The position numbers and the translations under genes are program-made. A stretch of 64,000 bases of DNA from Tribonema minus (lineage: Eukaryota > Sar > Xanthophyceae > Tribonematales > Tribonemataceae): assembly GCA_017506865.1 (NCBI GenBank), contig JAFCMP010000412.1:186001-250000 (forward strand), given 5' to 3'. Below are positions 9,384 through 59,603 of the stretch, piece by piece. Position 1 is the stretch's first letter; the number at the start of each line of letters is the position of its first letter. Below the pieces are notes generated by a model. The model ran no database searches, was not told the DNA's origin, and was given only the letters and a program-made list of their open reading frames with translations.

Positions 9384-12300
9384 CTATGGGTGTACGGTCT
9401 CCGTCCGCCCTAGGGTCAGCTTCGTGGCGCTCTTGAGCAGTGCCACGCCCTTCACCACCGCCCCCCCACTACCCCCCCCACCGCCCACTGCCTTGGCCCC
9501 CACAGTGCTCACCGCCGCAGCACCACCCTCATCCTCCTCCAACTCCAACTCCGACCCCCCCTCACCAAAAATGTCCCCCAGCGATTCCCCTTCCAGCTCC
9601 CCCTCCCCCTCCTCCCCCATGTCACCCCCCCCCGCCGCCCCCCCAGCGGCACCGCTCTTACCGCCGCCCCCCCTGCCCCCCCCTCCCCCGAACAGCGTCC
9701 CCCTGAGCGTCTGGAACACGCCGCCGCCGCCCTTCTTTGCCCGCGGCTTGTAGTCCAGTTTGGGCTTCTCGATGTCCAGCAGGACGTCGCGGATGCTGTC
9801 GAGGCGCCTGAGGCGGCCGCCAGGGCCAAGCGGCAGCGCGGCAAGCTCGTCCATGTGCTCGTGCTTGAGCGCGCAGAACTCGCACAGGCGCCCCGCATTG
9901 CACAGGAGGCAGCCCGCGAGGGCGTCGCCGCGGCCGTGCTTGTCGTACTCCGGTATAAAGGTCTCCAGCTGCCGCAGCACGTCGGCGTTGGCGGGATCGG
10001 CCTGCGGCGTATGTATTACGTGGTGCGTTTGTGTGGGTGCCGTGTGTGTGTGGGTCGCTTGCTCAGCAGCCGGAGTGTATGGTCCATGGCGGCGGAGTGT
10101 GCAGGCGCGGTGAGTGACATGACGTTGGAGCGAATACCAAGTAGGGTGCAGACAACTCCCATAGTGAACTCAAGGTGTGGCTGAAGATGTCTGTGCACCA
10201 CCCTTTCCCATTGTGCATAGACATCCCACTGTGCACAGACATCGCACTGTGCACAGACATCCACAATGGCAAACGCTGTGTAGGCACATGCTGGTGACTC
10301 CAGGCTGAAGATAACCCTCCTCTGCCCCCCATTGAGGGTACTCAGAAGACGCTATTGGGTTACTGCGGCAGCGCTCGAGAGTTGTCTGCACTCAGCACTG
10401 CGCAAGACAGCCGCACATGCGCGCACTGGCCGGCAGTGGCGTATTAGGCAAGGCCGCTGATCCTCGCAAGCAGCTGCATGCGCCTTGCATGCTGTAGAGC
10501 ACAGCGTGAATCCGCTGCGTCACCTGCACAGCGCGCTTGTACACCACCTTCACATTTTCTGAGATCAAGGACTTCAAGATGGTTGCACATATGATTAGCA
10601 CATGGCTTAGAACTGCATCATGTGCGCAAATGGGTATACCTCAAAGTACATAGCACACCGCTGCCGCGCGCTTACACGCCACTTCTGCAACGTACAAGAA
10701 GTGACGTGCCAAATATGTATTTTGAAGTACCGGATGGCGTACTCTGGCCGTGTCATGACACACATGGCAGAATACAGGCGGGGGGGGGGGACATGGAGGA
10801 GGACGTAGGGGAGGGTCCCGAGATGCCATTTGGCGGCGGCAGCGTTTGAGTGGTTGTCGTTGAGACACTTTCAGACTGTCACACGACATGTAGATTCCGT
10901 ACAGCAAGCTTCAAGTTAGATGCCATTCATCTGGGCTTTTTCGTGCCCTGAGCCAGAATTAATAATAAGTACCCACTATTCTGGTCATTATGATCAGAAC
11001 TGCTACAAACTTGCCACTTTGGCAATAGGGTCATTTGGCAGCATCGAGCAGGGGCGGAAGCTGCTGGAGGCTGTGGCGACGGAGTATGCCAGCAGGATGT
11101 CAGTGCCCGGAGGAGCGCGCCCTAAAGCTCTCAAGGGCATCGCCCTGGCGCGCTTACGCTCGGCACTGTCGGCAGCGCTCCACATGGCGTACTCTGGCCG
11201 TGTCATGACACACATGGCAGAATCCAGGGGGGGGGGGCACATGGAGGAGGACGTAGGGGAGGACCCCGAGATGCCATTTGGCGGCGGTGGCGTTTGAGTG
11301 GTTGTCGTTGCGACACTTTCAGACTGTCATACGACATGTAGATTCTTTACAGCTAGATGCCAATCATCTGGGCCTTTTCGCGCCCTGAGCGAGAATTAAT
11401 AAAAAGTACCTACATGTACCTACCTGTACACATATACCTGTACGCATGGTATATACGCGGCATACCGCTGCTGCATCACCTCACCTGCACAGCGCGCTTG
11501 TACGCCACCTCCACATCCTCGGGATCGGGCAGCGCACGCACAACGACCGCCGTCACGTAGCGCCCCGCAACAGCGTGGCACACGCGCCCGGGGCTGCGGC
11601 GCGCGCCCTTGGTGCCCAGAACTTCAACCTGCGCCAGGTGCAGGAAGTTGAAGCCCTCGAGCTGTATGCGCACGTAGCGCGCGCTGGTCTGGTCGGGTAA
11701 CCGCCAGGTTGAGCATCTGCGGAGCGGGGAGTGAATTGGGCGTGTGTTGAGCCGTATGTACATTACATGCAGCATGCAGTACAAACGGGTAGTGACCCCC
11801 AAGTACATCATCATCTGCTCCAGTACAAGAGATCTAGCAGGTTCTGAAAGTACTGTAGGATTTCCCCCAGTCGCTGCCTACAGTGCGCGCTGCATGTCAC
11901 CACGAGCATACATGCCAGTACATACACCTTCAAGCTGTCAAACAGGCACCATACATACATACCTCCGCTGCGCCGTGAGCCTCACGCGCGCCTGCGACTG
12001 CGCCAGCGCCGCCTTGAGCGCGTCCCCCCCCGTCCCCTCCGCGTACGGCGTGCGCGACACCATGACCCAGCACGGGAACAGGCGCCGCGCATACAGATCA
12101 GCGCCGAAGGAGGGGTCATCGGGCTCGTCGCTGCGGTTCCACACGCGCACCGTGTCGATGCGCGCCTCGCTGCCGAGGTCCACTTCCCACCACGCCTGCG
12201 CGTCCTGCTGCGTGCACGTGCACGCCGCGGCGCCGTGCCCGCCTGGCATTCACAGAGTTTGCAGTGTGTGGCATCGTTGAGACAGCGGCGGGGTGTGGAT

Positions 12301-15300
12301 CCTCATAGCGGCAAAGACGGCATGAGATGAAGAAACATGCATACCCTCTCGTCCACCACCGCTGGCGCGTGCACGTGCAGGCTGTGGCGCCGTGCCCGCC
12401 TGGCAGTTTCAGTTGCAGGACATGGCATGCAGCGCACGGTTTCCTTCGGAAAGCGACGGTCACGCGGGTCCTCGGAGTGGCGTAGATTGCATGAGATAAA
12501 GCATGTCCCTGTAAGCCACATACTACCAGAACACACATGCTAGAGTTGCTGAAATTGCATATGTTCACGTTGCATTGTTGCAGAGCACTGGACGGATTCA
12601 GCAGCCAGGAGAGAGGCGGCAGCTTCATAGCAATCCATCCACCCACTCATGAGTATGGGCGGGTATGTATGCCTGTGTGTGCTTAGAGCACACAGTGTTG
12701 AGAGCACCACTGCATGCGTTCCGTGCCAGCTTCCACAAGACTATCTTCAATAACTGTCACTTCACCCCCCTGATCTACTTCACCTACACAACCTCAACTG
12801 CATGACTCACCCGTCTCCCCATTCGTCGCGCGCTCCGCCTCGCAGTTGTTGAACACGCTGCTCTGCCGCGCAGTGCACCCGCGCGCCAGATTTTGCGGCC
12901 TCTGGTACAGCGCCGCAACGCACGCGGGCGCTGCCACAAAGGCCGTCCCCAGGGGGTGCCCGCAGCACCCCCCCCTGTTGCTCCCCCACGTGTACAGCTC
13001 CCCCTCGCCGGTGATGACTGCGCTGTGTGCGTGGCCCGCTGAGACGTGGCGCACGGCTAGGCCCTCGAGCGCGGCTATGGGCGCAAAGGCGCGCTGGAGT
13101 TCGCCGAGCGCTGACGCGGAGCCGGCGGCGTACACGCGCCCGCCGCGCACAATCTTGAGCCTGTCGGGGCCTGTGCAAGCAGTAGGATGGGTTGTGTTAA
13201 GAATCTTAATATGCATACTTCTACATGGGTATGTCAAGTAGGTGTGTATATTTGGCGCCCGCGGCGTTTATGCAGCCGGCTGCCACGCACGACTTTGAGC
13301 CTGTCGGGGCCTGCCGTGCACGTCAAGTTTGGGATGGGTTAATTTTGAATGTACGAATGTATGCAGAGGTATCAGAGTAGGTGTATATATGGGGAGTGTG
13401 CGGCATACGCCACGCACGACCTTCAGCCTGTGGGGGTCTGGCGCGCGTACGAGCGATGGGATGGGTTGGATTGGGTTTGAGTGTATGCAGAGGTAGGTCA
13501 GCATAGGTGTATACATGTGGAGCTTGAGGTGTATACACAGCCGGCTGCCACGTGTGTGTGGACCAGGGAGACACGGAGGAAGGCGAGCATGTCAAGAGGG
13601 GGTGTGACGCCACGGTGGCACCACGACGTGCTGTTCATCGCGAGCGAGGGGCTGCGTGTGCGTGGCTATGCAAGCAGCCTAGACTCAGGGGTCTGCGAGT
13701 GTTTCAAGTGGAGCGGGAGGTGTTGTTGATATCAAAAGTGCTGTTGATACGCTGAGAAGGCAATTGAAGGCCTGTTGTCTGGACGCTGTGAATGACTGCA
13801 CAAGGGCAATGAAAAGTCAAAGGAGCTCAAGCCCATTAGGCAAGAAATGAGGGGCGGGGGGGAAAGGTGACGCTCCAACAACTTGAAGTCTGAGCGCAGA
13901 GAGAACTGACGTGCAGGCAAAGCAGGCATTGGCGAATAAGGAGCATGAGCACGCCTTCATGGGCACTACAGCAGCGGACCTTAGGCCCTACACTCCATGA
14001 TCACCCCCCATTTTGTGGTGCAATCAATGTACTACCATGGACGCTGAGCACTTGAACTGCACTCAAGTGCTGAGGAAAAACCTCAACTTTATGAGTGCAA
14101 ATGGACCAGGCATGAACTGTGAGTGAGGAGTCACAGCAACAACATCATAAAGTAGTATAGCTTGCTTACCGACGGCAGTGCTATGCGGCAGCGGAAGACT
14201 ACCACTGGCCACATTGCTCAACCTATCCATGTGACACTGCAGCATCGACCATAGACAGCAAGTGTCATATGGCCAAGTATCAGCTATGTATGCCTTCACC
14301 ACTTCCCAGCTACTTGCACGACCTTCAACCGTATGACAGTTCCAGTCTCAATCATAACTTCAAGTTTTGCTGAAGATGGCCAGCGGGCAATTCTGACAAC
14401 ATTTGTTTCTGCACTCAACACCGCCATGCGGTTTGGCAATCTTGCTCACCACCTACCAATCCACAGCAGCATGCTCTCACCTGACCCCTCAAACTCTTCT
14501 ACGACTGCAGTGGCCACCAGCGTGTGAGCGCTGCCACAGCTGACCAGTGCCACCCTCTCATCCAACAGCGATTCGACCAGGGTGGGTACCCAGATGGCAC
14601 CCCCCGGGGGCAAGGGGGAGAGCCCCAGGCGCCCCCCGTCTGTGCACCCTGGCAACGCGAGCAGGGTTAGGTTAGACATGATCGCTGAGTTTGTTGTGTA
14701 CGCATGCATGTGTGTGTGCATGCATGTGTGTCTGTGTGTAGTATGCGCGCATGTATGAATACGTGTATGTGTGCGTGTCTGTGTAGATGCGCATGCGTAT
14801 GCTGCGTGTTGGTAGTAGAGCAAGCATGGCATCATCATTCTCAGAGGTTGCGGTTGAGCTCCACAGCCCTAACCCTAACCCTAACCCTAACCCTTAGCAA
14901 TCTGCCTACAGGCAGGCTAGTCTGCTGTTGTAAACAACCTAGGTGTGACCATACACCAATGTGATGTGATTATGTTAAGCGTTGGTGAGATCTCATTAGG
15001 TTGCCCGCTGGTGTCCCCATCACTGGCCTCGCCCTGACTGGATGCAGAACAAGTCCTACCCTTTCTTCGGCACTCGACAGAGTGTCACCCGCTCCCCGTA
15101 ATCTTTTCCATCGGTCGTGTTAACTTAAGCGTCACTCACAGCAGACCCAGAACTGCCCCTCCCCCTGTGACTGCCACTGTGTGCGCAGCGCCGCAGCTGA
15201 GGCGCTTCATTTGTTGCTGACCACTGCCACACCCGCGCGACCGCCATTTGAATAAGGATTAAGCTCACTTGAATAGTATAGAAGTAGTTGGCTTTGGCAT

Positions 15301-18300
15301 GCGAGCGAAGTGTCACTGCCCCCAAACTCAGAGCTGCCCCTCCCCCGTCACTGCCGCGGTGTGCGCAGCGCCGCAGCTGAGGCTCTTTATTTGTAGCTGA
15401 ACGCTGCCACTACTTGAATAAGGTTAAAGCTCACGTGAAAATACAGTTAGCTTTGATATGAGAGCGAAGTGTCACTCACCCCAGACCCATAGCTGCCCCT
15501 CCCCCGTCACCGCCGCCGTGTGCGCGGCGCCGCAGCTGAGGCGCTTCACCGGGCGCTGAGCGCTGCCGCCCAGCAGCACGCGCGCGGGCGCCGCCACGTA
15601 CGCCTCCCCCTCGCACGCCCCTATGCCCAGCTTGCCGGTGGCGCCGCTGCCCCACGTGTACAGCTGGCCGCCCGCCGCCACCGCTGCGCTGTGGCTGAAG
15701 CCGGCGCTCATGCGCGTGACGGGGCGCGCTGCTAGGGTAGGTATGGGGGAGGCGCGGGGGGCGTCCGCCTGGGGTTGACCCCCCAGGGACACGTCCAGGC
15801 CGAGGCGGCCGCTGATGCCCAGGCCCTATAGGAAGGGAAGTGATAGTTGAAGATGAGGTTATTGTGTGTGTAAGTCAAAGGTGTCGCATGAGGTTCACTT
15901 GATGAGGTCATGATCAAGGTCATGATGAGCACTGCTGCGGCGATCGCTCCAGGCACTAAGATGAAGCATCCTGTTTCATGAGCTCATAAGCCCGATTGCC
16001 GTACCCATCAGTATTGAATCAGACACGTACCCAGGAGTACAGCTGCCCCGTGCGCGCAGCAGCAGCAGCGCGTGATTCGCCTCCGCGGCTGCGTTGAGAT
16101 GAACACCAAAGATTCATGAACTCAAGTGCATTGCATACTTTTATCAGACACATACCCATGAGTACAGCTGCCCCGTGCGGTGCAGTAGCAGCGCGTGGTT
16201 TGCCCCCGCGGCTATCGCCACCACGGCCCCCACCCCCCTGGGCGTGACGCTCCCCCCCGCCCTCTCCGTCAGCCCCATCAGCGCCAGCTGCCGATCAATC
16301 CTGTTGGGGCTGGGGGCAGCGCTCAGCCCGATGCCATTCGGCGGCAGCGTGGTGTCGCCGCGGCCGGCGGCAATGGCCGTGCGCCAGCGCTGGTATTCGG
16401 CTTCGGCCTTGAAGTACTCCTTTTCGCGCGCGGCTTCGCCGTCGGCGCGGTGCTTGGCCGCGTCTTCCGCCTCTATCTCCATGAGCGGACGCCACATGGA
16501 CTCCACCTGCCAGGTGGCGTGAGGCGGGCAGGACGTGCAAGTATATGTACTTCAGTAGGGCCGCATGAGTGCGAAGTTGTGAGCTGTGGGCGTGAGCTGG
16601 CGCATACATACATACCTACATGCAAACATGTATGCAGCGGAGTCGCATTGTTCAGGTGCGCTGTGTTGCAGCAGCTCACACAACGGCCGTGCTACACCCC
16701 TTCTAGCGCTCTTGCCCCCCCCCCCCAGTATGCTATAACTCAGTGTCGCAACAACACACTTGTATCATGCATTTGAAAGCAAACGACGCATGTGACGTGC
16801 CACAAACAGACCCGCCTCCAGGCTCTTAGCTATGACTTCCAACGTGCACTCACGACAAACTGCAACAGGTGACGTGCCACAAAAGAGACCCACCTCCAGG
16901 CGCAGGCTCTTGGCCATGGTCATCCTGCCCTTCTTGGCCATCTGTATGATCTCCAGCTCCAGCTGGCGTATGCGGCGGTGCAGGCGCTCGCCTAGCACGC
17001 TCTTCTCGAGTAGTATCGACGCGTACAGCATGTCCATGAGCTCCGCCTTGTTGCTGTCGCTGGGGTGCTTGCCGCGGCACTCCAGGCTCAGCTTGACGGC
17101 GTTGAAGGTGATGCGCGGCAGCAGCTCCTCCTCTATGAATTTCAGGTGCTGCGCATGAGCACAGGGGCAACGTTGAAGGTAAAGTTTTGGGTACACGGTG
17201 CTTTGGGTACGGGGTGCTTTGGGTACAGGGTGCGAGCGTCCATATTAGTTGAGATACATGGTTTAACTTGTGAATGTGTAGATTGAGTTGTGCGGCAGCA
17301 GCTCCTCCTCAATGAATTTCAGGTGCTGCATGAGCGAACAGAGATGAGGTGAGTCAACTGGTGAAGCTTAAAGTGAAGATCAGTTTGCACGTTGAGTCGT
17401 AGCTGAGGCACCTATGCACCGACTTCGAAATTGCGATGCATGGCAGCAGTCGCTCCTCATTGAATACGATGTGACATATCCTGCTAGTCAAGCAGCGCTA
17501 ATTGCACTTGACACTGGTGACGCACCTCGTTGGTGGGCGGCGGGCGCCACACGTTGAAGTACTCGCACAGCACCTTGTACTTGGCCACCAGCTCATCCTC
17601 CGCGGCCCCCCCGTGCACCCCCGCCCCCCCCTCCCCCCCCCCCGCACCCCCCCCTCCCCCCCCTCCCCCCCCCCCCCCTCGAACTCCCCCTTCCCCGTCG
17701 TCTGCAGCAGCAGCTGGCTGCGCGCCGTCGTGTCCCCGCGCCAGTGCGTCTGCCAATGCGAATCTGCCGCTAGGTCGTGCCACCAGTGCGATCGCCCCCC
17801 CCACGCGAACACCTCACCCAGTTCGCTGAGCGCGAAGGCGGCGCCCTCGGAGAGCGCGACGCTGGCTATGCGCTTGCCCCAGAGGCCCGCCGTGCTGCGC
17901 CCCGCAGAGAGTTCCCGGAACGGGCTGGTGGTCGCGTCGCGTTCCGGGTCGTAGTAGAATTTTTGGGCTGTGGCGGCGGCGCGGAGGAGAGTCACAGGGG
18001 CAAGTGCGAGGTGCAGTAGGAGTTGAAGTTGAAGTGGTGCGTTGTTAGCGAGTGTTTTGGTGCATGCGTAGGAGCAGAGTGAGTGCGGATGAGAATCGGT
18101 TCCGTAGGGCCGTCCAGAGCGTTCAGAAAAGCAATGGACTTCCGCTTTTATTGCGTGGATGAAGAAATCAACTTAGATTATGATCCCCTGGCACTATCAA
18201 GTCACAACGGCGCAGCGCTGTTGGCGACAGTTGCACGTTCTGCAGCACTGTCGCTGCCGCCCGCCATTGCTGCGACCACGCGCTGCCAACGCCGCCACCG

Positions 18301-21300
18301 CACGCTGCCACTGCTGCTGCCACCGCAGCCACCGACGCAGCTGCTGCCGCCCCCAGCAATGCCATCCCCATGCCACATGCCCCCATAGACTTAAACGGCC
18401 TTCAACGCGTCCCCTTCCGCCCCTGTTGCACGTGCATGGCACGTGGCAGCAACAATCAAGAGCACACGCGCTTCTCTGCACACCTCCGCTGCCACTGCTT
18501 GATGCGCTGCTGGCCGCGGCGCTGCTGCCGTCCGCAGCGCTGCCCCCCGCCGCCGCCGCCGCAGCAGCCGCCGCCGCCGCCGGCAGCGTCGTTCCCACCT
18601 CCGGCGTGGGCGCCACGCGCCGCCCCCACAGCTCCTTCAGCAGGTCCCAGTGCTGGTAGCGGTAGCGCCCCTGGAAAGCTTCACGTGGGGGGTCGGCGGC
18701 AAACTCGCGGTAGGCCCCCGTGCCGAAGACGTAGACACTGCCGGCAGCGTCGAGCGCCGTCTTGAGCTCGGCCTCCGCGCGCAGCTTGGCGCGCCGGTGC
18801 GCGGCGCGCTTGCCGCGGAGTAGCGCCTGCCAGCGGCCCCACCTGCACCAGAGTGATGGTGTTGTCGTATGTTGTGGGGGTCGCATGTGCGCTTGGAAAT
18901 GTATACGCGACGTCAACTTCAACATGTGCATCAAAGCAGCGAGGGTGGCGTTGTTGTGCGCTGCGAGGGTCTGATGTGCACTTTGTTTGCCGCGCAGCAG
19001 CGCCTGCCAGCAGCCCCGCTTGCATGAATAGTGGCATGATCGCGCGTTGTGTACTTTGAAGTTATGCACACCGTCGACTTCATGTACATCAAAAGAAGTA
19101 TGCGCATGTGAAGTATGTTATCTGAGCACACATGTGTGTATCACCGCTGACGCGCGTTTTGCTTGCCGTGCAGCAGCGCCTGCCAGCGGCCCCACCTGCG
19201 CGAGAGTGATGGTGTTGTTGTGTGTTGTGAGCATCTGGTGTGTGTTTGAGGTGTACGCCGTACAGTTGAAGTTTATTTGTACAGTTGAAGTTTGTTTGTA
19301 CTTTTATTATATTCCACTTGTGGCTGTGGAAATGCCATTTGTTTGTACATGTGAAGTTAGTGTATTCTCTCAGCACACATATTGCCGCTGATGATGAGTT
19401 CTGCACTGGCCGTGCAGCAGCGACTGCCAGCGGCCCCAACTGCGCGAGAGTGATGGTATGGTCGTGGGTTGTGAGCATCTGACGTATACATGCGTACTCA
19501 TGAGGCGTAAATATGTAATGTACGTTCTTGGAGGTACTGGGCTGACGTGTCTTGCGCTCGCTGCACAGCGGCGCCTGCCAACGGCTGCACATTATCAAAG
19601 TGTGTCACAAGATCTAATGAGGGCCTGACCCTAATCCTAAACGTAATACTAACTCTAACCCTAGCCTTGGTTCTAGCTCCAGTACCAACCCTAGCCCTAC
19701 GTCAAAAGGCACCTCTGACAGGCACCTCAGCGGCGATTTGGTCCAGCCGTACAGGGCGACGTGTGCATGGTGCGCTCGGCTTGCAGCAGTAGATTGTCAG
19801 CTGCCGCGCCTGTATCACGCATTGACATCAGCAGAGGCTGGCGCAGAGGATGGCGCGCCATGACAAGTGCTTCTTGTGAGTGAGTGCATATCTGTTTCAG
19901 TCAGGGCTGGGGTTGACACAACTTGCTTGCGGCGTAGCGCGGTGCTTCTCACGTACAGAACTTGCAGTTAGGGTTCCAGTTAGGGCGAGGTGATGGTAGC
20001 TCAGTGCGGTGCAGCACCGCCATGTCCCACGGTGTTGTGAGCACCTGACCAATGTGATCATCTGGTTGCTGTATGCGCGCTGCTACTTAGCTGTTCAATG
20101 CAGGTCATCCTCTTGGTGATCGACGGCCCTATTCTGGGGGATGAAATCAGAGTGATTTAGTTCCAGGTCTTGCGGTTTGGGTTAGGGTATGTAGGTAGTT
20201 GGTCGTACATCGCTCACCACTCCGCCTCAGCCAGTGAAGAACATTTGCGGCGTGGTGAGTGTGCCTCTTGAGTACTGGTCTTGAAGTTTTGTAGGGTTTG
20301 GGGTAGGTACGTACTTTTGCGTCACTCACCGTTCTGCCTCAGCCAGTGCGCGCGCCTCTCGTTCCTCCTCCTCGTCCAGAATACGCTCCAGCTTGCGCAC
20401 CAGCTGCCCATGCGTCGCCAGCTTTGGGATTTTGATGCCTCTGTCTGCCAGCTCCTGCAGCTCAGCACGTGCACAGAGGATGTTCAGCATTGGCGCTCGC
20501 TAATGGTTGCTGCAAACGTCAGCGCAAGGAAGACTTTCCAGAGCGGATCGCTGCTCAAACTTGCATGCACATGTGCTGATTCCTGCTTGAAGTTGAACTT
20601 TGTGGAGTTGGATTATGGTCCGCCAGCTCCTGCAGCACAGCTCAGCATGCACAGCTGGCCTCGGCATTGGCAGTTGCGGCTGATACAGCTGATCATGTCT
20701 TGTGTAAGAGTAGGTGAACTCGACGTGCGTGAAGTGGATGAACATGATGTGCGTGTGTGAACGTGCACGAACGTGTGCAAATACACAACCAGGTACACAG
20801 GTAGGTATCACATCAAAAGCGCCGTATATACCTTCTTGACGTTCGCCAGTCGCACCCATATCTTCTTGAACTCGTCGTATTCTATGGTGCCATTGCCATT
20901 GGTGTCATACTGCTTGAACAGGCTCTCCAGCCGCTCCTCTGAGACCTCAACTCCCAGGAATTGCAGTAGGAAGAAGAATTCATCCTCGTCAATGTTGCCG
21001 CCTGCATAGTATAGAGGTCCAGCCAGTACAAGGATTCATAAATTTTCAGCATGCGTGGGGCATTATAGTAATGTGGTACAAAGTTCTCATAAACTCACAG
21101 AGGTATGCACCAGACCGCCAGCCACCGCCAGCCTCGCATAGGGCCTTCAATCAGTACAACAGACCTGAAAACATAACGCTGCAGTCCTGACTTTGTTTGG
21201 TGCGTGCGCAAGAGGTGGTACTGCTTATGATGTCATGCGCTGGGCACAGAGGTCCAGTCAGCATCCAACAATACCGCATAGCAGTGAAGCTCACAATACT

Positions 21301-22889
21301 GACACCCCTTGCTGTCTGTATCAGCCTCCACCATGCGCCACACCCACCACTGTGAACTTATCAAGGCAGCGAGCAAGCATGGCATGGCTGCCACTTGCAC
21401 TACTTCATGCTGTCAATAGCATGGCCAGCGTTGTGTGAGTTTTGTGCATTGTCAACAGAACTTGATGCCTTCAGAAGCGCTTGTTGAAGTCGGCAGGCAA
21501 GTCATACATGGTCGCCATCCTGAGTGTGTATGAAAAGGACGCGATCTTATGAAGTGCTCGAGTCTGGTGTGAATGAGTCACTCTCTAGAGTGTGAATGAG
21601 TCACTCTCTAGAGTATCGATTCTCTCACAGTGAACCCGGCTCATGTGTTGACTTGAACGAAAATCTCAACGAGCTCCTGTCGCTTTCAGGCGTGCAGGAT
21701 TGCTTCCTGTTGAATATGGCTCTGGATAATGAAGTTTGCTCTGATTCACACACAACGATTACTATTTGACTATGGGCACTAAACATCTGTCAGTGGTGAA
21801 CACTGAACACAACAAGCTGATGACGCCGAGCTACGTACTCTTGTCTGTGTCGAACATGTCAAAGGCATCCATCGGGCTCAGCAGCGAATTGGGGGCGAAC
21901 CCCACGGGGTTGCCATTGTCAGGGTCCACCGCAAACAGCGCCATCTGTGGTGCATTGCGTACAGCACAAGGGTACAGGAAAGAAGCAGAAGAGAAGCAGA
22001 GTGAACGACAGGGGTCGCTGGGGCCAGTGGAACAAGGGTCAGCTCTGAATTCCCCTGCAGCAAGCACGGTGTCAGGAGTGAAAGTGCTGCTGACTGCCTA
22101 GTGGTTCGCTGTCGCTCCGGCAGTCTGGACTTGTGCTGGCGAAGACTCCAAACCAGCTGATGCCAACATGAAACTTGCTCGCGATGATGCTGATAGTACC
22201 GGATGCCTGTATCTCAGCAAACAATGTTGAACATGCATGTTTGCTAGGCAGTACTATAGTAGTCGGCGGTGCGAAGCCGTCCGATGTATTTGTCGCGACT
22301 CGCGATCACTCGAAAGCAAACCTGTACTGCAAATATCAAGTTTGTTCACAAGATGGTTGCAGCGCGCAAAACTTGCACATTTTTTTGGACATTTTGGCTA
22401 CTGATCATTGCAGTTCGCAAGGCATTGACAGTGCAGCGGATCGTGCTGAGTGCGCACCTTGAACTCATCCAAGTCAATGCTGCCATTGCCATTCTTGTCA
22501 CAGGTCCTGAAATAACGTAGTGCCTTCGGCAAAGAGACCTCTATGCCAAGCTGCGGCAAGATTGCTTTAAACTCCTCAAAGTCGATGGTACCATCGTTGT
22601 CTTTATCGAAGATGGCGAATATCGCTTCTGGAGGCAGCTTTCCCATGGTCTTCTTGAGCTCCTGTACCGCCAAAGCATTGGCGGTTTCATCGCCAATCTC
22701 GCCACTCGAAGCTGTGCTTGACACGCTGGCGTCATCCCTGTGCTTCATAACCTTGCTTGCCAGTACTCTAGCATGTGCATCGGGGTTTGCTATCGTCCTG
22801 CCCAAGTTGTTTCGTTGGGTGCCGTTAGTGCTGCCGCTGGCATAGCCGCGGCTGCTCCCGCGTCGAATGACCAGCGCCGAGGACGCCAT
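9384..22889 (-). CDS. EF-hand / RCC1 beta-propeller / F5/8 type C multidomain protein
   Basis: Fourteen exons join in phase: 22889-22458, 21944-21839, 21001-20832, 20454-20330, 18842-18484, 17967-17526, 17148-16894, 16506-16156, 15825-15480, 14648-14481, 13170-12811, 12242-11963, 11716-11485 and 10001-9384; about 1414 residues. Four EF-hand loops are visible at about 95-106 (DKDNDGTIDFEE), 131-142, 176-187 (split by an intron) and 212-223. A charged helical linker leads into RCC1-type repeats, e.g. LYSWGLGISGRLGLD, LYTWGSGATGKLGIG and LWVWGCTDGGRLGLS, each preceded by a G-x-x-H-(S/T/A) turn. After about residue 1015 comes an F5/8C/discoidin-like segment (ARQSSVFNN ... WWEVDLGSEARIDTVRVWN ... 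RYVRIQLEG). The C-terminus is Cys-containing, then Gly/Glu-rich. Likely a calcium-responsive scaffold; partners unknown. The sixth exon changes frame by one base inside a G-homopolymer tract (see findings). The last exon is read to a stop at 9384 and could instead splice onward. Confidence 0.82.
10520..10565 (-). repeat. Echo of the exon ending at 11485 (donor side)
   Basis: A diverged copy of the 3' end of the exon at 11716-11485 with its donor. The shared core on the plus strand is CACCTGCACAGCGCGCTTGT followed by ACxCCACC. It lies downstream in the transcript of the true junction and keeps a GT. Confidence 0.75.
10731..11430. repeat. Diverged direct repeat pair (about 230 bp each)
   Basis: Copy 1 spans about 10731-10985 and copy 2 about 11183-11430. 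Both begin with GGCGTACTCTGGCCGTGTCA and share a G run, GATGCCATTTGGCGGCGG, TTTGAGTGGTTGTCGTTG, ACACTTTCAGACTGTCA, and an end near AGAATTAATAA. A few percent of positions differ, including the length of the G run. The unit lies wholly inside the last intron of the EF-hand/RCC1 gene and is unrelated to its exons, unlike the exon-edge copies elsewhere. Its source could be a dispersed repeat or transposon end. Confidence 0.8.
10920..11297 (+). CDS. Antisense intronic open frame of unknown origin
   Basis: A 125-codon frame on the plus strand inside the last intron of the minus-strand EF-hand/RCC1 gene. The middle portion (about residues 30-95) looks protein-like, with a Glu/Ala/Arg-rich amphipathic segment containing GRKLLEAVATEYASRM and LKGIALARLRSALSAALHMA, and has GC-rich third positions. 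Its 3' part lies in a roughly 230-bp sequence that also occurs, diverged, at 10731-10985. It may be a fragment of another gene or of a mobile element copied into the intron. No family is recognised and no splice partners are established. Coding status is uncertain. Confidence 0.25.
   Translation: MPFIWAFSCPEPELIISTHYSGHYDQNCYKLATLAIGSFGSIEQGRKLLEAVATEYASRMSVPGGARPKALKGIALARLRSALSAALHMAYSGRVMTHMAESRGGGHMEEDVGEDPEMPFGGGGV
12196..12420 (-). repeat. Echo of an exon start in the EF-hand/RCC1 gene
   Basis: The acceptor and first bases of the exon starting at 12242 (GCGCCGTGCCCGCCTGGCA on the plus strand) recur at about 12365-12410, upstream in the transcript. Both copies keep an AG at the junction. 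The outer copy carries substitutions that break the frame. Confidence 0.7.
13145..13450 (-). repeat. Exon-start echoes, three units
   Basis: The true acceptor/exon start at 13170 is followed on the plus strand by two decayed copies near 13282-13318 and 13413-13447. All carry GAGCCTGTCGGGGCCTG or a close variant. The intronic parts between them (GGGATGGGTT ... GTATGCAGAGGT ... GTGTATA) repeat as well, giving a unit of about 135 bp. A weaker match (GCACGACCTTCAACC) lies near 14317. Confidence 0.8.
14867..14894. repeat. Interstitial telomere-type repeat (CCCTAA)n
   Basis: Four to five perfect CCCTAA units within an intron of the EF-hand/RCC1 gene. The same motif as TTAGGG occurs at 39109-39127 and 58274-58297 and, shorter, at many other intronic places. 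Confidence 0.9.
15133..15560 (-). repeat. Exon-end echoes, three units of about 170 bp
   Basis: The end of the exon at 15825-15480 with its donor (plus strand AGCTGCCCCTCCCCCGTCAC and GTGTGCGCxGCGCCGCAGCT) recurs at about 15311-15395 and 15136-15215. Intronic parts also repeat (TGAATAAGGxTxAAGCTCAC, AGTTxGCTTTG, GAGCGAAGTGTCACT). Divergence rises with distance from the true exon. Confidence 0.85.
16025..16215 (-). repeat. Exon-end echo, two units
   Basis: The end of the exon at 16506-16156 recurs at about 16028-16095. Both share GAGTACAGCTGCCCCGTGCG and GCGCGTG on the plus strand, with a GT at the donor position. Confidence 0.8.
16797..16925 (-). repeat. Exon-end echo, two units
   Basis: The donor end of the exon at 17148-16894 recurs at about 16795-16835; the shared core is GTGACGTGCCACAAA, then GACCCxCCTCCAGG. 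The intronic flank is duplicated together with the exon edge. Confidence 0.75.
17108..17475 (-). repeat. Exon-start echoes, three units
   Basis: The acceptor and first bases of the exon starting at 17148 (plus strand GCGGCAGCAGCTCCTCCTC ... TTTCAGGTGCTG) recur at about 17292-17332 and, more decayed, at 17440-17475. The copies lie upstream in the transcript. Confidence 0.75.
18800..19590 (-). repeat. Exon-start echoes, about five units
   Basis: The start of the exon at 18842 (plus strand AGCGCCTGCCAGCGGCCCC then ACCTG) recurs near 18997, 19172, 19413 and 19563. The intronic flank is copied too (GAGAGTGATGG, GTGTTGTG, GAGCATCTG; GCAC(A/C)TATT/GTGT). Spacings are about 150-240 bp. All lie upstream of the true exon in transcript order. 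Confidence 0.82.
20205..20650 (-). repeat. Exon-start and exon-end echoes around one small exon
   Basis: The 125-nt exon 20454-20330 has a start echo at about 20618-20650 (CCAGCTCCTGCAG then AGCTCAGCA) and an end echo at about 20207-20240 (CTCACC then CCGCCTCAGCCAGTG). The two echoes flank the same exon on the geometrically expected sides. Confidence 0.7.
21567..21612. repeat. 23-bp perfect tandem duplication
   Basis: Two adjacent copies of a unit containing GTGAATGAGTCACTCTC within an intron of the EF-hand/RCC1 gene. No role is evident. Confidence 0.9.
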
Positions 22890-51065: not shown

Positions 51066-53894
51066 ATGCCGGCCACAGAGGAGCTGCTGCTCAGAAGAGA
51101 GCTCCTACTTGAGGCGCGGTTTACAGCTGCTCCGCACCAGGCAATCTCGCCCCCTACAGCACCTGCGCCGCCGCGCCAGCCAAGCAGTGGCGACAGGCAT
51201 ACGAGCAACCTCACCGACTATGGCACAGACAGTACCCTGCTCGAGCCCACCAGCAGGAGCGGTACTCATGATGGCTTTCCTGGAATACCGCCAAGGCAAG
51301 AACACCATCATCACAGCCAGCACGATCCTTCAGCGCGCGAAACACCTCTGGCAGCAGCACCGTCAACGATAGCTGCTGCAGCAGCAGCAGCATCACCAGC
51401 AGCTCCAGCGCCCATGAACGGTAGTCTTGTGCGGCACTCCTCATGGGGCGGTGCGGCGGCAGAACCGTTTGCCAAGCAACAGCATCAGCAGCAGCAGCAG
51501 CAGCAACAAGATTCTGCCGCTGCCGCGCCCGCCGCCGCCAGCAAGCCCAAAGCAAGTCGCAAACGTCAGAGAGACGAGAACAGCACCAACGCGGCAGCTC
51601 AAGAAATCAAGCGGTCAGCCTCACTTGGCATGGCCGGCGCACAGGCTCCTACTCCTGCCTCACGCGGCGGCGATACCGCAGAGTCACAGCCCTCTGGCGG
51701 CACCGAGAAAGCCAAGACCGCCACGATACTGTCGTACTTCTCTGTGCAGCCGGGCGCGGCGCAAGGACGCGCATCGCAACACCTCATGCCCAAGCCCGGG
51801 CATGGGAAGGGCGCAAGCGTCAGCGGCGGCGGCGGCGGCGGCGGCAGCGGCAGCGCAGCAGCATCGCGCCTCTCCCCGCTGCGCAGAGGCGAGCTCATAG
51901 ACCTGGCCTCGCCGAGCCCCACGCCTGCCTCCGCTGCGCACTGCACGACGCCCGCAGCGCCGCTGCTGCATCCCCGCCAGACTAGTGCCGAGGGAGCCAA
52001 GCTGCAGCAGCAGCAGGGGCTGCGGCTGCCGCAGCCATCCAAAGGCGGCAGTCACGTGACGCCCGGCAGCGACGGCAGCGGCGGCGTCGGCGGCGGCGGC
52101 GGCGGCAGCGGCAGCGGGATGGACGAGAATGGGCGGCTGCAGGCGCAGGTGGTGGATCTGCGGCTGAAACTGGCGGCGGCGGAGGAGCGCGTTGCTAGCA
52201 GCAAGTCGTTCAACCACGGGCTGCAGGTGAGCCGTGTGCAGCGCGAAGGCGTGTCTGTGCCAGTCATTGAGTGTCAGAGTCTGGATGAGGGTTAGAATCG
52301 GTGTAGAATTGGGACTGCCTGTATAAAGTGAGTTGTCTGTGGTGAGGTCCTTACGGCGCGCTAACAGCTGCACGCAGAGTGCATAGGGCATAGTCAAGTT
52401 CAGTTTTGTGACCATCTATCTCCTCCGCGCTGGCACCACCCTAGGGCGTGCATCAACGCATTCATATGGTATGTATGCCTCAGGCACTGCTGCTGTTGCT
52501 CAGCGAGCGTGAACGTTTGCATCTGGCCCGGCATCAGGTATGACGCATCTGCATTTACAATAGTTCACCATGTGTCTGCACGACTTGAAATGCAGCAGCG
52601 CAGGGGGAAGCCAGCAGTTGCACCCAGTCTCTCTTCCCGGGCTACACCCTCTGAAGCACAATATGACGACACTCTGTATACACGCGCATCTCGCTGTCGT
52701 CCAATGCAAACCCTCGCCGCCGCCCCCTTTTGCGCGACACACCCGTAATTCCTGGGGCGCATCAGGTGGAGATAGAGCGGCGCAAGGAGGCGGAGGCGCT
52801 GCTGCACGGCCAGGTGGCGTCGCTGCAGAGCCAGGTGGCGTCGCTCAGGGCGCAGCTGCAGAAGAGCAACGAGGACGCGCTGGCGGCGGAGGCGAGGGCG
52901 ATTGACAGGGCAGCAAGGGCCAGGCGCGCCCTGGAGGCTCAGGTGCGGCATTGGGTTTTATCAGCGGAAGATCATGTGGCTGTGGGGCGTGTGCAGGAGA
53001 TTGACAGATTTGTATAGCTCAGCGGTGCGCTGTGTGCAGGTGGTGGGCGTAAGCGTTACTGGGTGGCTTTGAAGTTGAAGTTATCCCGAGGCGCGCGCGC
53101 CAGACGCGCCCTAGAGGCTCATGTCGATTTATTATGTGGAGATCATGTAGCTCTGACCCATGTGTGTGTGAAGTTGACAAATTCGTATAGCTCAGCGCCG
53201 GGCGGGCTGTGAGGCCATGTCTCGTGTGTGTGTGATGAGGGTACCCAATTCTCAGGCTACGGTGTTGAAGTTGAAGTTTATCAGGGGTCTGGTCGCGCCG
53301 CCCAATCTGTGCGCATAGGTGCCGCGCCGTGCTTCAGTTGATGTCAGACGCGCCGTGTGGGGTGCCGCACCGTGCTTCAGCAGTGCTCAGGGGCATGAGG
53401 GCGTGGAGGCAGAGGCGCGCGTACTGTGCTTCAAGTGGTGACTCGCCCGTCTGTCACTTATCGCGACGCGCGTGCGCTTGCGCGCTCTGCTTGCGAGAGT
53501 GCGCGAAGGCGCGCCCGCGCCGCTGGGGGTCCACCCCGGTGCTTCCAGCGGAATGCTTCAAGCGGCGACTCACCAGTCTGCCACAAGTACTCCTCTCGTA
53601 TACTTCAAAGAAGTAGAATTTACCATGCGAATTTTAACACAAATCGCGCCCGCGCATACGCCTGCGCAGGTGCGCGCCCTCTGCGTGAAAGAGAGCACGG
53701 AGGCGCGCGCGCAGCTGGCTGCCAACTCCGTGCGCGTCGGCCGCGTCGTACCGGGCTCCTCGCAGCACGGCGGCGTGCGCGCGGCGGGGGGGGCGCCCAT
53801 GTTTCACTACGCCGAGGTCTGGGAGGACGGGCCGCTGCTGCGCGAGGTCAAGGCCAAGCAGGTGCGCGCGCGCTGCTGCTGCTGCTGCTGCAGG

Positions 53895-53934
<40 letters not shown>

Positions 53935-56900
53935 GCTGCTGCCACCGCTGCCACCGCTGAGGCTGCTGCCGCCGCTGCTGCTGCTGCTGCTGCTGCCGAC
54001 GCCGCCGCTGCTGCTGCTGCTCCCCTGTGCCCTCGAATCACATGCGGCACTCTCAGTCACTCCTGACGCCCATTACCCCGCCCGTCTCTCTGCGCACGTT
54101 TTCAACAGGCCAGCCTGCTTTCCAAGCGCGAAGAACTGGACAAGCGACGGCGCCAGGTCACCAAGGACATGCGCAAGGCGGAGCGCTGCCGCGACCCCGC
54201 TGCCTCAGGCGCCGCTGCCGCAGCCGCCGCTGCCGCCGCCGGTGGCAGCGGGTGAGTTGAGGGGTGTTTTGATGCTCGCAAACAAGCAGTTGCTGCAGTC
54301 AGTGCACATGACAGCATACATTGTGGACTACGCTGACACTGTGGTATAATACACAGTAGGGTCATGATTACAGTTAGCTCAATGGTGAGGGTTAGGGTCA
54401 GGATCAGGTAGGTGTTACGGGCGTGCTGCACTCGCGGCTGACAACATGCTGACACTGGCACTCGTTTCCGGCGAGCACGACTAGCCCCCCCCACTCCCCC
54501 CACCGTGCGTCCCCCCCCAGCCAGCTCTTGTGCAGCACAACTGAAGCGTTGTTCACAAAAACATGTCTGCCAATCCCAAATGCCGGTAGGCACCACCATT
54601 TGCACGCCAAATCTCGTTCACGCCGCAAGTCGTCATCAACAACACTAACCTCGCTTGCCCCGCCGCGCCTGCCAACCAGCGACGAACACACCCCAGCGAG
54701 CCCCCCCATGGGCGCCCCCCGCAGCCGCACCGCGGAACAGGGGGAGGGGGGCAGTGCCCCTGCCAATGGGGAGCTGCCGCCCTGGGAGGAGCTGGAGCTC
54801 CTCGAAGCAGACGAAACCATCAAGCTGCACCAGCTGCGGCTCAAGAGGGAGGAACTTCAACTGGCGGAGGAGAGGAAGCGCCTGGAGGGGGAGAAGCAGG
54901 CGCAGATCCGGCTGTGGCGGCGCGTCACACTTGAAGATCGCTCGCGCTTCTCGCGCCAGCCCGTCCTCGGCGACAGATACGTCGTCATGCAGCTGCTGGG
55001 GCGCGGGGGTTTCAGCGAGGTCTGGAAGGCGTTTGATCTGGTGGAGATACGCGAGGTGGCCGTCAAGGTGAGCGCTGCTGCAGTGATCGACAGTCAAGAG
55101 GGGCTGCCTACTGGTACTAAGGTAGTGGGTGTAGGGGGGGGGGGGGGGGGTCCAGGGCAGGGTTGTGTATGAGCGCTGCTGGTTCTTGCGCTGTCATGCA
55201 GCTGCCTGGGCGCAGGGCTTCAGTGAGGTCTGGAAGGCTGTATGACTTGGATGTCAACACACTGCCTGTGGCCGTGCACCGATGACATGCGGGTGAGGTC
55301 GAGGGGAGGAGGGGTGGGTGGGGGGGGGGCTGAGGGTAGGTACGTCCAGTTGATCGAGTAGAGGGGGTTGATCTCACTGTTTGTCGGCTCGAATTCGGGA
55401 GAGCACCTGGCTCACGCGCAACACCGCTCTGCTAGTAGCTTAGATTAGATTTGAACAAGTAGCTTAGATGAGATTTGAACAATTGTTTGCGAGTTGGAGC
55501 TACGGGGACAGGATAAGGGGTCTAGAGACAGTCACATGCAGCCTCTCAGGTGCTGAATCTGTGTGCTGCACAAAGGCCATTGATGTTAGGGTTTGTAATG
55601 CGTGCTGACAGCCAGGGTTTGGGCCAAAGGTAGGTGTGGCAAGCGTTGCGCTTGGATCCAAGGATTTGCGGTAGGGCTAGGGTCAGGGTTCAGGCATCAC
55701 TTGTGAGGGTAAGGGTTGAAGCCAAATTCAGTGGACAAGCGCTTGATGGCCATTATCAATGTGTCAAATCTTAATGGACTGGTTCGGCGGCATGCTCATC
55801 TAGGCAATGAGGCATCACCATGGGAAAAACGTTTGCGTGTAGCATTTGTGGTGCTCAGGGGTCGGGTTAGGGTTTGGGTCACCTAACCCTAACACAAGCC
55901 GGTGACAATGTTGCTGCTGCGGCACCGTCAACTCTCTTGGATGCCTCATTTGCACATGCGCACGAGCGATTTGTGTGACACATGTTCCATTGAGATCCAT
56001 GTGATGCAGGCTGTCAGTGGTCAACATCACTGAGTGTCATTGCCTGTCATGCAAGAGGTGTGCATTTCTTGTGTTTTCGTCAAGTTTGGACTTGATGGTG
56101 GCTCTGCGCATTGAATGAGATCCTACTACATTTTGAAGTGACAATCACGCTCGGCGCATTTGTCATGAGCAAGCACCTACGCTGAGAGAGTGCGTCAACA
56201 GCTGTATGTAAGGACTTTGCTTGCCCTTGAATGCATGTGCATGCTGCAGATTCACCAGCTGTCAAGCATGTGGACCGATGAGAAGAAGGTGAGCTGCTGA
56301 GCATTGCTGTTCTATTGCAAGTAGCTTAACTGCTTGTTGTCATCATCTAGGAACGATGATAAAACTCATTTGACATCAGGGCGCGGCTGCCTACCTACAT
56401 CTCTCTGTTTTGAACCATCCTCGTGAAGACTTTGTGAACGAATGTTGCCACTGAAGGCACCACTGATTGCAGGCAACCATGATCATGAAGCCTGCCAGGC
56501 ACTTGCAGAGTTGTCCCCAGGTCCCGTTTCGCTACTCACTGCGCTGCACTGAATGGAAGTACTGCACTGTACCGCAATCAAGGAAGGGTGACATGGCTTT
56601 GCCCGACGTAAATCGATCTGCGTTGTCAGGCGCAAGCAGCACTTTGCCTGTGGTGTGCGCTGGAAGTGCAGAAGCCGCCTGACCATTGCTGCTCTTCACA
56701 TATAGCGATCGCATACGCTTGTCCGCGTAGACCCAGTCATAAAGAGTCGAACCTCACTGTTGAAGTCCGTTGTCTGACCGCGCCTGACGTGTCACCTGTA
56801 TGCAAGTTATGCGAAGCCCCAGGCCTCCAATTCACACCGCCTGTATAGGGCCTGTCCCCATGGCTCCATGCCATTAACCCTGTTTCTTGCGGCAATGAGT

Positions 56901-59603
56901 GTCATTACGCCAAGCTCATTAAGTGCCCGTGTGACAACTTGCATACATACCCACATCAGGCGCACTACACGCGGCACGCGCACCGCGAGTACAAGATCCA
57001 CAAGACCATGGAGCACCCGCGCGTGGTGAAGCTGCATGACGTGTTTGAGATCGACAGCAGCGCCATGGCAACTGTCCAGGAGCTCTGTGCGCCGGGCGGG
57101 CCGGGTCAGACGCAGGTGACTCTCCTCATTCTTATATAACTGTTCAAAAGCACGCAATGTGCTGAAGCCTGGTGATCAGGGCATGTGATGCTTTCTGCAT
57201 GAGGGCACTAAGCACATTTTTGCTTGGGGTGGTGGCCACCACCAACTGCTGAGCAATGCTCTTCTCCATCACAGCGGGCTGTACCACCGGCAGTGCTGCG
57301 CGCTTGCCGTGCCGCTAGCGTGTCGCACACAATGCCTTTGTACTTAAACGTTGATGCTGATATTTTTCTTGTGAAGTTAGTCACGAGCTCAAGTGCGCCT
57401 CCTGCGCTTTCTGTGCGCATTGAGGCCTTAGACCAGCGCCTCACGGCGCACAGCACCCTCCCGAGCACGACACCCAGGCGACACTCCTGCCAAAATGTGT
57501 CTCCGCAAAAGCTCGGAGCTCAAATTTGAAGTCAACATAAAAGTCAGTTGCGCATTGTCCCAATCTGCGTCTGGCACCCCACACGCACTGCATCAGCACC
57601 TCGAGGTGCACTTGAGTGCGAGGCCAAAGTGATCATTTTTGAAGCTGTGTATCGTCAAATCCGGTCTTGAGCACCTAAAAGCCATCGTTAACTTGAAGTT
57701 GGACAGAAAGGTTCCAAAGTTGTGCACTGATGCAGCCTGCCTCCTGCACCCCACCCGGTTCACAGGACCTGGACCAGCACCTCAAGGCGCATGGCCCCCT
57801 ACCAGAGCGCGAGGCCAAAGCCATACTCACGCAGCTGCTCAGCGGGCTGCGCTACCTGCACTGCCCGGAGGGCGGGCGGCCCGCAATTATACACTACGAC
57901 CTCAAGGTGACGCTCAAACTGCAACTTGTGTGCATGCTCACGTGTAACTGTAACTGTGACAGCAGAGCAACATTTGCAATCTGTGCACGCGCCTGTGCGA
58001 TGCTGTGTGCTGCAAATCGCCATAACTCTCTTACGCAGTCCCTGCTGCTGCCGCCGCTGCTGCCATTTGCTGCACTCACAGCCCGCGAACGTGCTCTTCG
58101 ACGGCGCGGGCGATGTGAAGATCACAGACTTTGGGCTCAGCAAGATTGTCGAGGCAGAGCAGGTGAGTGTACGCACAGGAAGAAACAGCCACTTCATGCA
58201 CTTATTTTTAACAACAAAAATAATCACTCGTGTGGAGCAGTGGCGCGCAGTATCAAGGACATGAGGGCTGTGAGGTTAGGGTTAGGGTTAGGGTTAGTGG
58301 GGAGTGGAGTGTCTTCATTGCTGCTGTGTAGCTGCGTCAAGGTCAAGGGACTTGGGGCTCAGTACGATTGTCGAGGCAGAGCAGGTGCGCTTGCATGCAC
58401 AAAGCCACCTCATGCAGCGCTAGCATCCTCTGCACACGTTCTGCATGCTGACGCTCCGTACGCTTCTGTGGATGCGCAGCTCGCTTGTAACGTTTGATGG
58501 CATGCGCTGATGTGCAATGGCATGGGCTGATTGACTGCCGGCTGCGGCAAGGCCATGGCGGCAGAGCAGTGCGCGCGCCGACTGTGGTGCAAGTAGGAGT
58601 GACAGTGACACACAGCTGCGCCAAACTCATATCTGAGCCGTGCTGCTTTTGCGCAGGAGAGCGGCGGCGTTGAGCTCACCAGCCAGGGGGCGGGTACCCT
58701 GTGGTACCTACCCCCCGAGTGCTTTGTCATGGGGGGCGCGGCCCCCCGCATCAGCGGCAAGGTGGACGTGTGGAGCGTGGGCGTCATATTCTTCCAGGTG
58801 TGTATCTGTGTGCTCATCAGTGTGTCATGGCTTGGTGACACATGTCAAGACATGTGTGTCAGAATGACGCTCATCTGCATTTGCAGTGTGCCGTGTGCGT
58901 TCTAAAGCACGTGGTGCTGCGGCTGCTGAATATACTCTATGATGCCACAACTTCTTTTCTTGTCCTCTGTGACTGTGCCATGTCACAGCCATACTGCAGC
59001 ATGCATCTGCAAAGATTTTGACCTGTCATGATGTGCCGCATACCTCACATCTCCAACGCGCTCTCGTGACCCATTGGATCGTTATGCGGAGCGCTTGCCG
59101 AGTGCTCGCGCGCTGCCACCGCTGCCACCACCGTGCCCGCCTCCGGCAGATGCTGTGCAGCCAGCAGACTATCAGTATTTGCATAACTAACATCACCATC
59201 GTATCCAATGACGTTGGTGCATTCAGGTCACAACAATACGCGTCGTCCATGACACCCCTGTGCCCACTTGCGGACATGCTGTCGGCTCGTGTACTTGAAG
59301 GACTTGAATCAAAGTATAATGCTCGTCTGCATTAAATAACGCCATCATTGACACGCGCGTCGTTCCCACCACTCCTGCCTGCAGATGCTGTATGGCCAGC
59401 GCCCATTTGGCGAGGGCAAGGACCAGCAGAAGGTGCTGCACGACCAGACCATGCTGCGCGCGACGCAGGTGGACTTCCCGCCCAAGCCCGCTGCGAGCGC
59501 AGAGGCCAAGGCGTTCATACGCCTGTGTCTCGCGCACGCGCAGGAGGACAGGCCCGACGTGCGCACGCTGTGTGCGCACCCATATATTCGCGCGCGCAAG
59601 TGA
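51066..59603 (+). CDS. TLK: Tousled-like serine/threonine protein kinase
   Basis: Twelve exons join in phase: 51066-52226, 52484-52537, 52766-52942, 53670-53861, 54109-54251, 54680-55067, 56250-56288, 56960-57115, 57766-57906, 58082-58162, 58657-58797 and 59385-59603; 963 residues. TLKs phosphorylate the histone chaperone Asf1 and act in chromatin assembly during S phase. Residues 1-370 are low-complexity (Gln, Ala, Gly, Ser) with basic clusters and a [10 protein letters not shown] segment. Coiled-coil stretches follow to about residue 560, as in other TLKs. The kinase domain has GRGGFSEV (683-690), VAVK (Lys705), [13 protein letters not shown] on a 39-nt exon, [29 protein letters not shown] (Asp815), DFGLSK (Asp833) and [11 protein letters not shown], where PPE replaces APE as is typical of TLK. 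The hinge around 755-770 ([12 protein letters not shown]) diverges from the usual EYC-G-DLD. Confidence 0.94.
53095..53125 (+). repeat. Exon-end echo (TLK exon 3)
   Basis: CCAGACGCGCCCTAGAGGCTCA resembles the true exon end CCAGGCGCGCCCTGGAGGCTCA at 52920-52941, followed in both by GATCATGT in the flank. The donor GT is retained in altered context. Confidence 0.7.
53872..54026. repeat. CTG/GCT trinucleotide repeat tract in a TLK intron
   Basis: Immediately after the donor at 53862, the intron is nearly pure CTG for about 60 bp, then interrupted (GCCACCGCTGCCACC) and CTG/CCG again to about 54022. It would encode poly-Cys or poly-Leu if retained; the TLK frame meets a stop at about 53958. Confidence 0.9.
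54986..55250 (+). repeat. Exon-end echo (TLK exon 6)
   Basis: The end of the glycine-loop exon (CATGCAGCTGCTGGGGCGC ... GAGGTCTGGAAGGC) recurs at about 55194-55250 (CATGCAGCTGCCTGGGCGC ... GAGGTCTGGAAGGC). A long G run (about 55134-55151) lies between the copies. Confidence 0.88.
57420..57830 (+). repeat. Exon-start echoes (TLK exon 9)
   Basis: The start at 57766 (CTGGACCAGCACCTCAAGGC, CGCGAGGCCAAAG) is preceded by decayed copies near 57424-57470 (TTAGACCAGCGCCTCACGGC) and 57594-57640 (CATCAGCACCTCGAGGTGCA, GCGAGGCCAAAG). Confidence 0.8.
58125..58390 (+). repeat. Exon-end echo (TLK exon 10)
   Basis: TTTGGGCTCAGCAAGATTGT, CGAGGCAGAGCAG then GTGAGT at the true end (58162) recurs as CTTGGGGCTCAGTACGATTG, CGAGGCAGAGCAG then GTGCGC at about 58349-58385. 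Confidence 0.88.
58274..58297. repeat. Interstitial telomere-type repeat in TLK intron
   Basis: Four perfect TTAGGG units, just before the exon-end echo at 58349. Confidence 0.9.

Follow-up and report, generated by a model that had tools for sequence, protein, structure and literature searches.

Intron lengthening is usually ascribed to transposons, and the locus described here raises the question of whether introns can also grow out of their own borders. The first-pass annotation of a window of 64,000 bases (bases 186001-250000 of contig C412, in a 158-Mb nuclear genome of 554 contigs) held that at about 25 splice junctions in five genes the exon edge and its splice site recur inside the adjoining intron, and it read these copies, which we call echoes, as remnants of tandem duplication. 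We anchored the genes of the window by Pfam and PDB matches: an RCC1-repeat gene with RCC1 and F5/8C domains (minus strand, 9.4-20.5 kb), a fructosamine kinase gene (minus strand, 25.5-26.5 kb), a K+ channel gene (plus strand, 33.3-46.8 kb, with two of three domain matches below the Pfam cut-off), a bacterial-type uL1 gene (minus strand, 49.0-50.6 kb) and a Tousled-like kinase gene (plus strand, 51.8-59.6 kb). An EF-hand-like gene recognised by eye lies between the RCC1 and fructosamine kinase genes (20832-22600, minus strand). Exon models were built with a self-trained program for coding sequence and splice sites, followed by manual addition of exons found in translations; because the gene models were made from sequence alone, every exon edge given here is a modelled one. 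Modelled exons end in approximately (C/G)AG before a GTG(A/C)G donor, and at acceptors CAG precedes an exonic G.

A self-comparison of the window returned 57 repeat pairs, all located at 10.5-58.5 kb, with 43 direct pairs at offsets of 101-961 bp and identities of 61-91%. No repeat pair of this kind was found at 1-9,000 or 60,000-64,000; Tandem Repeats Finder reported three short tandem repeats with units of 17-26 bp at 1-9,000. Several repeats that at first appeared to be intron-internal proved, from translations, to be echoes of exons missing from the first model. One intronic direct repeat (10734-10976 and 11184-11413, 88% identical, 450 bp apart) has no tie to an exon edge. We then searched the introns with exon edge plus flank at 62 junctions, on the expected side only, and at 27 of them the adjoining intron contained one or more diverged copies of the edge (18 of 31 donors and 9 of 31 acceptors), although one of these, at donor 53861, is doubtful since it lies inside a GCT repeat. 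The nearest echo is 77 to 235 bp from the junction in 25 of the 27 cases by manual reading, with a median of 159. The positions are given in Table 1.

Table 1. Positions of echoes and selected exons in the window (bases numbered from its first base).
Gene	Strand	Position	Feature	Remark
RCC1	-	10520-10566	Donor echo of exon 11485-11683	961 bp away
RCC1	-	12362-12501	Acceptor echo of exon 11963-12242	
RCC1	-	13254-13552	Two acceptor echoes of exon 12811-13170	
RCC1	-	15127-15408	Two donor echoes of exon 15480-15811	
RCC1	-	16018-16090	Donor echo of exon 16166-16506	
RCC1	-	16780-16824	Donor echo of exon 16894-17148	Mostly flank, 8 exonic bases; position approximate
RCC1	-	17271-17335	Acceptor echo of exon 16894-17148	
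RCC1	-	18251-18354	Donor echo of exon 18484-18842	Position approximate
RCC1	-	18987-19590	Acceptor echoes of exon 18484-18842	Four, one at threshold
RCC1	-	20166-20236	Donor echo of exon 20330-20490	
Fructosamine kinase	-	25372-25419	Donor echo of exon 25455-25644	Position from offset
K+ channel	+	33282-33568	Exon	3' edge and donor echoed at 33643-33952
K+ channel	+	33643-33952	Two donor echoes of exon 33282-33568	
K+ channel	+	34315-34468	Array: 3' edge of exon 34232-34351 and its donor echo	
K+ channel	+	35531-35895	Donor echoes of exon 35142-35409	Copies 35531-35698 and 35829-35895
K+ channel	+	36652-37220	Three acceptor echoes of exon 37314-37598	
K+ channel	+	37314-37598	Exon	Echoes on both sides
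K+ channel	+	37696-38545	Five donor echoes of exon 37314-37598	
K+ channel	+	39208-39383	Acceptor echo of exon 39535-39720	Weaker second echo ends near 39109
K+ channel	+	39777-40028	Two donor echoes of exon 39535-39720	
K+ channel	+	40646-41019	Array with two donor echoes of exon 40339-40610	
K+ channel	+	42343-42392	Donor echo of exon 42011-42159	
K+ channel	+	42795-43021	Two donor echoes of exon 42653-42753	
K+ channel	+	43481-43594	Acceptor echo of exon starting at 43721	
Tousled-like kinase	+	53099-53197	Donor echo of exon 52766-52942	
Tousled-like kinase	+	53464-53542	Acceptor echo of exon 53670-53861	Position approximate
Tousled-like kinase	+	55193-55250	Donor-side echo of exon 54680-55067	
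Tousled-like kinase	+	57423-57647	Two acceptor echoes of exon 57766-57906	
Tousled-like kinase	+	58336-58416	Donor echo of exon 58082-58162	

The existence of junction echoes is confirmed, and the claim of five genes stands for four. Echoed junctions number 10 of 18 in the RCC1 gene, 11 of 20 in the K+ channel gene and 6 of 20 in the Tousled-like kinase gene; the fructosamine kinase gene has none at the two junctions searched with flank, and it enters the count through exon 25455-25644, whose donor lies outside the 62 and has an echo (z of about 10). An uncertain exon, 29772-29882, also has an echo (z=6.5). Two exons of the EF-hand-like gene were tested and had no echoes, and the two uL1 junctions also gave none, as had been noted before. 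Echo load differs by gene, from the full K+ channel and RCC1 genes to uL1 with none at two junctions; our guess is that selection against mis-splicing is weaker in some genes. An assembly or sequencing artefact deserves practically no credence as the source of the copies: the assembly does contain redundant pieces (loci L027 and L028, from contigs C296 and C490, share 3,411 bases at 100% identity, through either redundant assembly or a very recent copy), but the short-range direct pairs have diverged to the identities given above and the window lies inside a contig of 948,074 bases.

According to the first-pass annotation, copies of an exon's 3' end lie downstream of it and copies of its 5' start lie upstream. 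For 29 exons (predicted exons 26611-26612, of 2 bp, and 29772-29882 were left out), we searched the downstream intron for matches to the terminal 80 bases and the upstream intron for matches to the initial 80, using a threshold of z>4. Matches on the expected side were found for 10 of 29 exon 3' ends and 9 of 29 5' starts, while searches of the wrong side with these segments gave 2 of 29 and 0 of 29, respectively (19/58 versus 2/58 in total, p=5e-5), so the side rule holds. This sidedness is partly geometric, because an intronic copy that includes the junction must fall on the intron side, and the true surprise is how strongly the repeat arrays of the window adjoin intron ends. Of 26 arrays, 21 touch a modelled junction, compared with 10.0 expected and a maximum of 18 in 2000 shuffles. 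Because conserved exons could ease the detection of arrays at junctions, we also masked the exons, and 12 of the 17 intronic arrays then lay within 25 bp of an intron end, with 1.4 expected and no shuffle of 2000 as high.

We asked whether the same pattern is seen at other loci of the genome. A first test used 33 hand-picked predicted exons from 10 of 16 loci that had been chosen arbitrarily, not randomly, and gave matches (z>4) on the expected side for 13 of 65 edges and on the wrong side for 4 of 65. A second, automated test (z>4.5) covered 16 further loci, one of which had no usable exons and 11 of which are light-harvesting genes, some of them mutual paralogs; it left out L028 as a copy of L027, exons shorter than 60 bp or with a coding score below 14, and edges without a modelled splice site, and it skipped wrong-side comparisons for exons shorter than 110 bp. 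This test found 7 of 57 matches on the expected side and 0 of 52 on the wrong side, with three of the seven in L031 and L033, where echoes had already been seen beforehand. Combined, the outside loci have 20/122 expected-side and 4/117 wrong-side matches (p=0.0009). The excess on the expected side is present in these loci but weaker than in the window, which is thus richer in echoes than the rest.

Repeat arrays were also mapped with automated gene models in loci L004 to L034, minus L015 and L028; L002 and L003 are GC-rich with dense open frames and were left out. L002, the first 10 kb of contig C1, stands apart from the other loci, with 71% GC and densely packed open frames on either strand. 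We found that 21 of 46 arrays touch a predicted junction, compared with 10.5 expected and a maximum of 20 in 1000 shuffles. The other 25 lie off junctions, so unanchored local duplications exist, and loci without predicted junctions contain 7 arrays in 45,443 bases. Of 31 unanchored arrays (an array in L030 was left out of 32), 14 overlap coding-like sequence, with a background of 35% in 350-base windows. The tie between arrays and junctions is strong in the window and present but partial elsewhere. These unanchored arrays are what would be expected if duplications hit all DNA evenly and echoes stand out because exons are conserved and introns were formerly short, and it can be reasoned that most duplications in a short intron would cross one of its borders. 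This explanation overlaps with the one we prefer, as it keeps the duplications and denies a preference for borders. We hold it to be a serious possibility, though a doubtful one, given that arrays still adjoin intron ends when exons are masked and that the two ends of the window have no such repeats.

A view of introns with and without echoes is provided by the light-harvesting family, for which we found 92 exon-level matches in the genome, a number that identifies its source as an alga. The best matches of these proteins are multi-domain LHCI chains, followed by many chains named ACPI, ACPII or CAC, labels that we take to denote chlorophyll a/c-type antennae. Two neighbouring light-harvesting genes each have a paralog pair, with one member on contig C79 and the other on C1. 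In the first pair, the exons of L030 (C79) and L031 (C1) are identical at 328 of 350 positions (94%); L031 has two acceptor echoes in a 962-bp intron and three donor echoes beyond, while L030 has no echoes and an intron of 656 bp, 306 bp shorter. In the other pair, L025 (C1) has two acceptor echoes and its paralog L024 (C79) has none. The simplest history that these sequences suggest is that tandem duplication produced the echoes in the C1 copies once the paralogs had separated and so lengthened the intron, as the first-pass annotation had proposed for echoes in general; it is also possible that they were instead lost from the C79 copies. In both neighbouring genes the echoes are in the C1 copies only, as if activity differs by region or by copy.

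The array in L025 is young, and by eye the exonic end of one copy joins the intronic start of the next directly, with about three shared bases at the join and two events that have different exonic breakpoints. This head-to-tail layout, together with the presence of both exon edge and intronic flank in the copies, supports tandem duplication across the junction as the best-fitting reading, in line with the original proposal. Several repeat pairs in the window also align beyond their offset (for example, 317 bp at an offset of 133 and 719 bp at 207) and others align over less. Some alignments are far shorter than the offset, for example 47 bp at an offset of 960, which could point to insertion of the copies by a mobile element or through RNA. 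We consider such insertion highly improbable, as the copies have one orientation, include unspliced flank and are laid head to tail in the L025 array; in addition, for the one exon searched, the best candidates of a genome search with the protein of exon 37314-37598 (E up to 0.001) were the exon itself and three of its own echoes, which lie in its own intron.

The copies themselves also bear on their origin and fate. Beside the junction, identity between exon and echo is 0.73 on the exonic side, where 0.50 is expected by chance, and across 100 bp of flank it is 0.44-0.53, against a chance level of 0.18-0.35, with gaps counted as mismatches; the step in identity at the junction is only partly real, because chance itself drops there from 0.50 to 0.35. 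When two echoes were compared with each other and with the exon, each resembled the exon more than the other echo in 8 of 11 cases, 2 cases were ties and 1 was the reverse; this agrees better with copying from the exon than with spread inside the intron. Echoes had been said to decay with distance. The nearest echo is more similar to the exon than the farthest at 11 of 12 junctions, with one tie, but when the nearest and second echoes are compared over equal stretches, 6 are higher, 3 are lower and 2 are tied, so the claim stands only in part. Differences between exon and echo fall at 265 of 1060 third, 125 of 1063 first and 113 of 1072 second codon positions, and 44 of 46 gaps in echoes break the frame. 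This combination fits an exon under selection that changes silently and an echo free to change.

Some features of the echoes resemble those of functional sequence, as they would if echoes were working alternative exons or splice sites kept by selection. In-frame stops are scarce: the 1,129 echo codons from the window and from other loci contain 1, compared with 7.4 expected (2 of 1000 shuffles as low), or with 5.25 when the count is limited to first and second positions (22 of 1000 as low). Of 358 codons with a single change, 191 are silent and 167 non-silent, with 101 and 249 expected, respectively. Between echoes, differences again favour third positions (206/814, versus 138/811 first and 118/813 second), and identity is higher in exonic parts than in flanks (0.78 versus 0.59; higher in 47 of 58 pairs). 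GT or AG is kept in 36 of 43 aligned echoes, and a gene finder at relaxed settings called two echoes exons. Much of the pattern in codons and identities may stem from search bias, slippage in the flanks and silent changes that the exon gained from one copying event to the next, and weak constraint on echoes is possible. Against these features stand the frame-breaking gaps and the paralog whose exon is 94% identical and has no echoes, and we consider a working role improbable. Coding echoes are unlikely given those gaps, although the deficit of stops stays unexplained. Selection on echo splice sites has no support beyond the ordinary identity of neighbouring bases, as the splice dinucleotides match at 0.89 and 0.92 and bases within 12 of them at 0.58-0.92.

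We also considered base composition. From exon to echo, G>A and C>T changes number 187 and A>G and T>C changes 102; this excess does not show drift toward A/T, because exon edges are about two thirds GC. Eight measures were compared per side between echo-bearing and echo-free junctions, with uncorrected p values. Donor flanks were alike in G, C, T, A, GC and pyrimidine content (p>=0.61), so composition was rejected as a cause at donors. Echo-bearing acceptors had slightly less C (0.35 versus 0.40, p=0.023), less GC (p=0.018), fewer pyrimidines (p=0.036) and more A (p=0.016), and they lie in longer introns (967 versus 563 bp, p=0.028); the introns of echo-bearing donors had a length of 758 versus 568 bp (p=0.089).

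The explanation that we favour, and consider very probable, is that recurrent small tandem duplication across splice junctions, followed by largely neutral decay, lengthens introns. Short duplications, with nearest copies mostly 77-235 bp apart, would arise repeatedly across exon-intron borders; the copy attached to the exon body would continue to be spliced, and the other, consisting of exon edge, splice site and flank, would stay intronic and decay without coding constraint, so that repeated events at one border would lengthen the intron stepwise. We infer that the outer copies are unspliced, that the duplication events were independent, and that something in transcription, splicing or the exon DNA makes borders hotter than other non-coding DNA. 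A more specific proposal is that splice junctions are hot spots at which breaks or nicks linked to transcription or splicing are repaired with tandem duplication of about 80-270 bp. Small tandem duplications can stem from fill-in repair of breaks (PMC8355091). We regard this hot-spot proposal as unlikely but worth keeping in view; if it were true, splicing would shape where introns grow.

Related processes have been described. In a potato RdRp gene, a tandem duplication that crosses an intron-exon boundary and carries splice signals led to intron gain, and there is an 83-bp tandem duplication within the first intron too (PMC4974935). As in potato, the duplicated unit here comprises the junction with exon and intron flank. 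The potato gene is a single case with a new intron and inserted exonic sequence (PMC4974935), whereas here many borders have several copies and the sequence suggests lengthening without a new intron at echoed borders. In the Rogers model of internal gene duplication (Rogers 1989, Gao and Lynch 2009 and Hellsten 2011, as cited in PMC4974935), tandem duplication of gene segments also supplies intron sequence, but a new intron takes its two ends from an AGGT-bearing exon segment; the introns studied here already existed and contain copies of their own border, which include flank and lie on the side of the exon edge that they copy. Duplicated exonic copies turn intronic in Drosophila as well, where tandem duplication creates novel intron positions, with no series of border copies mentioned in the abstract (PMC2891723). 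Introners likewise cause large-scale intron change in diverse eukaryotes, including algae, but are elements copied into many genes (PMC9860276), while the one echo family searched has its best candidates in its own intron, not in many unrelated introns. In tandem exon duplication, including mutually exclusive exons, exon copies also lie in tandem within a gene, but whole exons stay in use (PMC9013439); here it is mostly one edge that is copied, and 2 of 46 gaps are multiples of three, although the stop deficit points in the opposite direction. Passages of a review of intron evolution mention tandem arrays and duplications only where they list origins of new introns (PMC3488318). The literature gave single cases and models and, among the papers listed, no account of echoes as widespread intron lengthening, an absence that we treat as provisional.

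Many introns of this alga thus seem to have been lengthened by junction-straddling duplications, which would leave a readable record of intron growth. Each echo would be an old snapshot of its exon, so that growth steps become legible, and paralogs with and without echoes would give views before and after. If echoes are unspliced, they provide decoy splice sites of natural origin, at known distances, with which to study how the spliceosome chooses the true site. Echoes also matter for annotation, because at relaxed settings two of them passed as exons in a gene finder trained on this genome, and the annotation of this genome may contain false exons derived from echoes. The two echoes called in this way, at 33667-33702 and 35866-35898, are both in the K+ channel gene.
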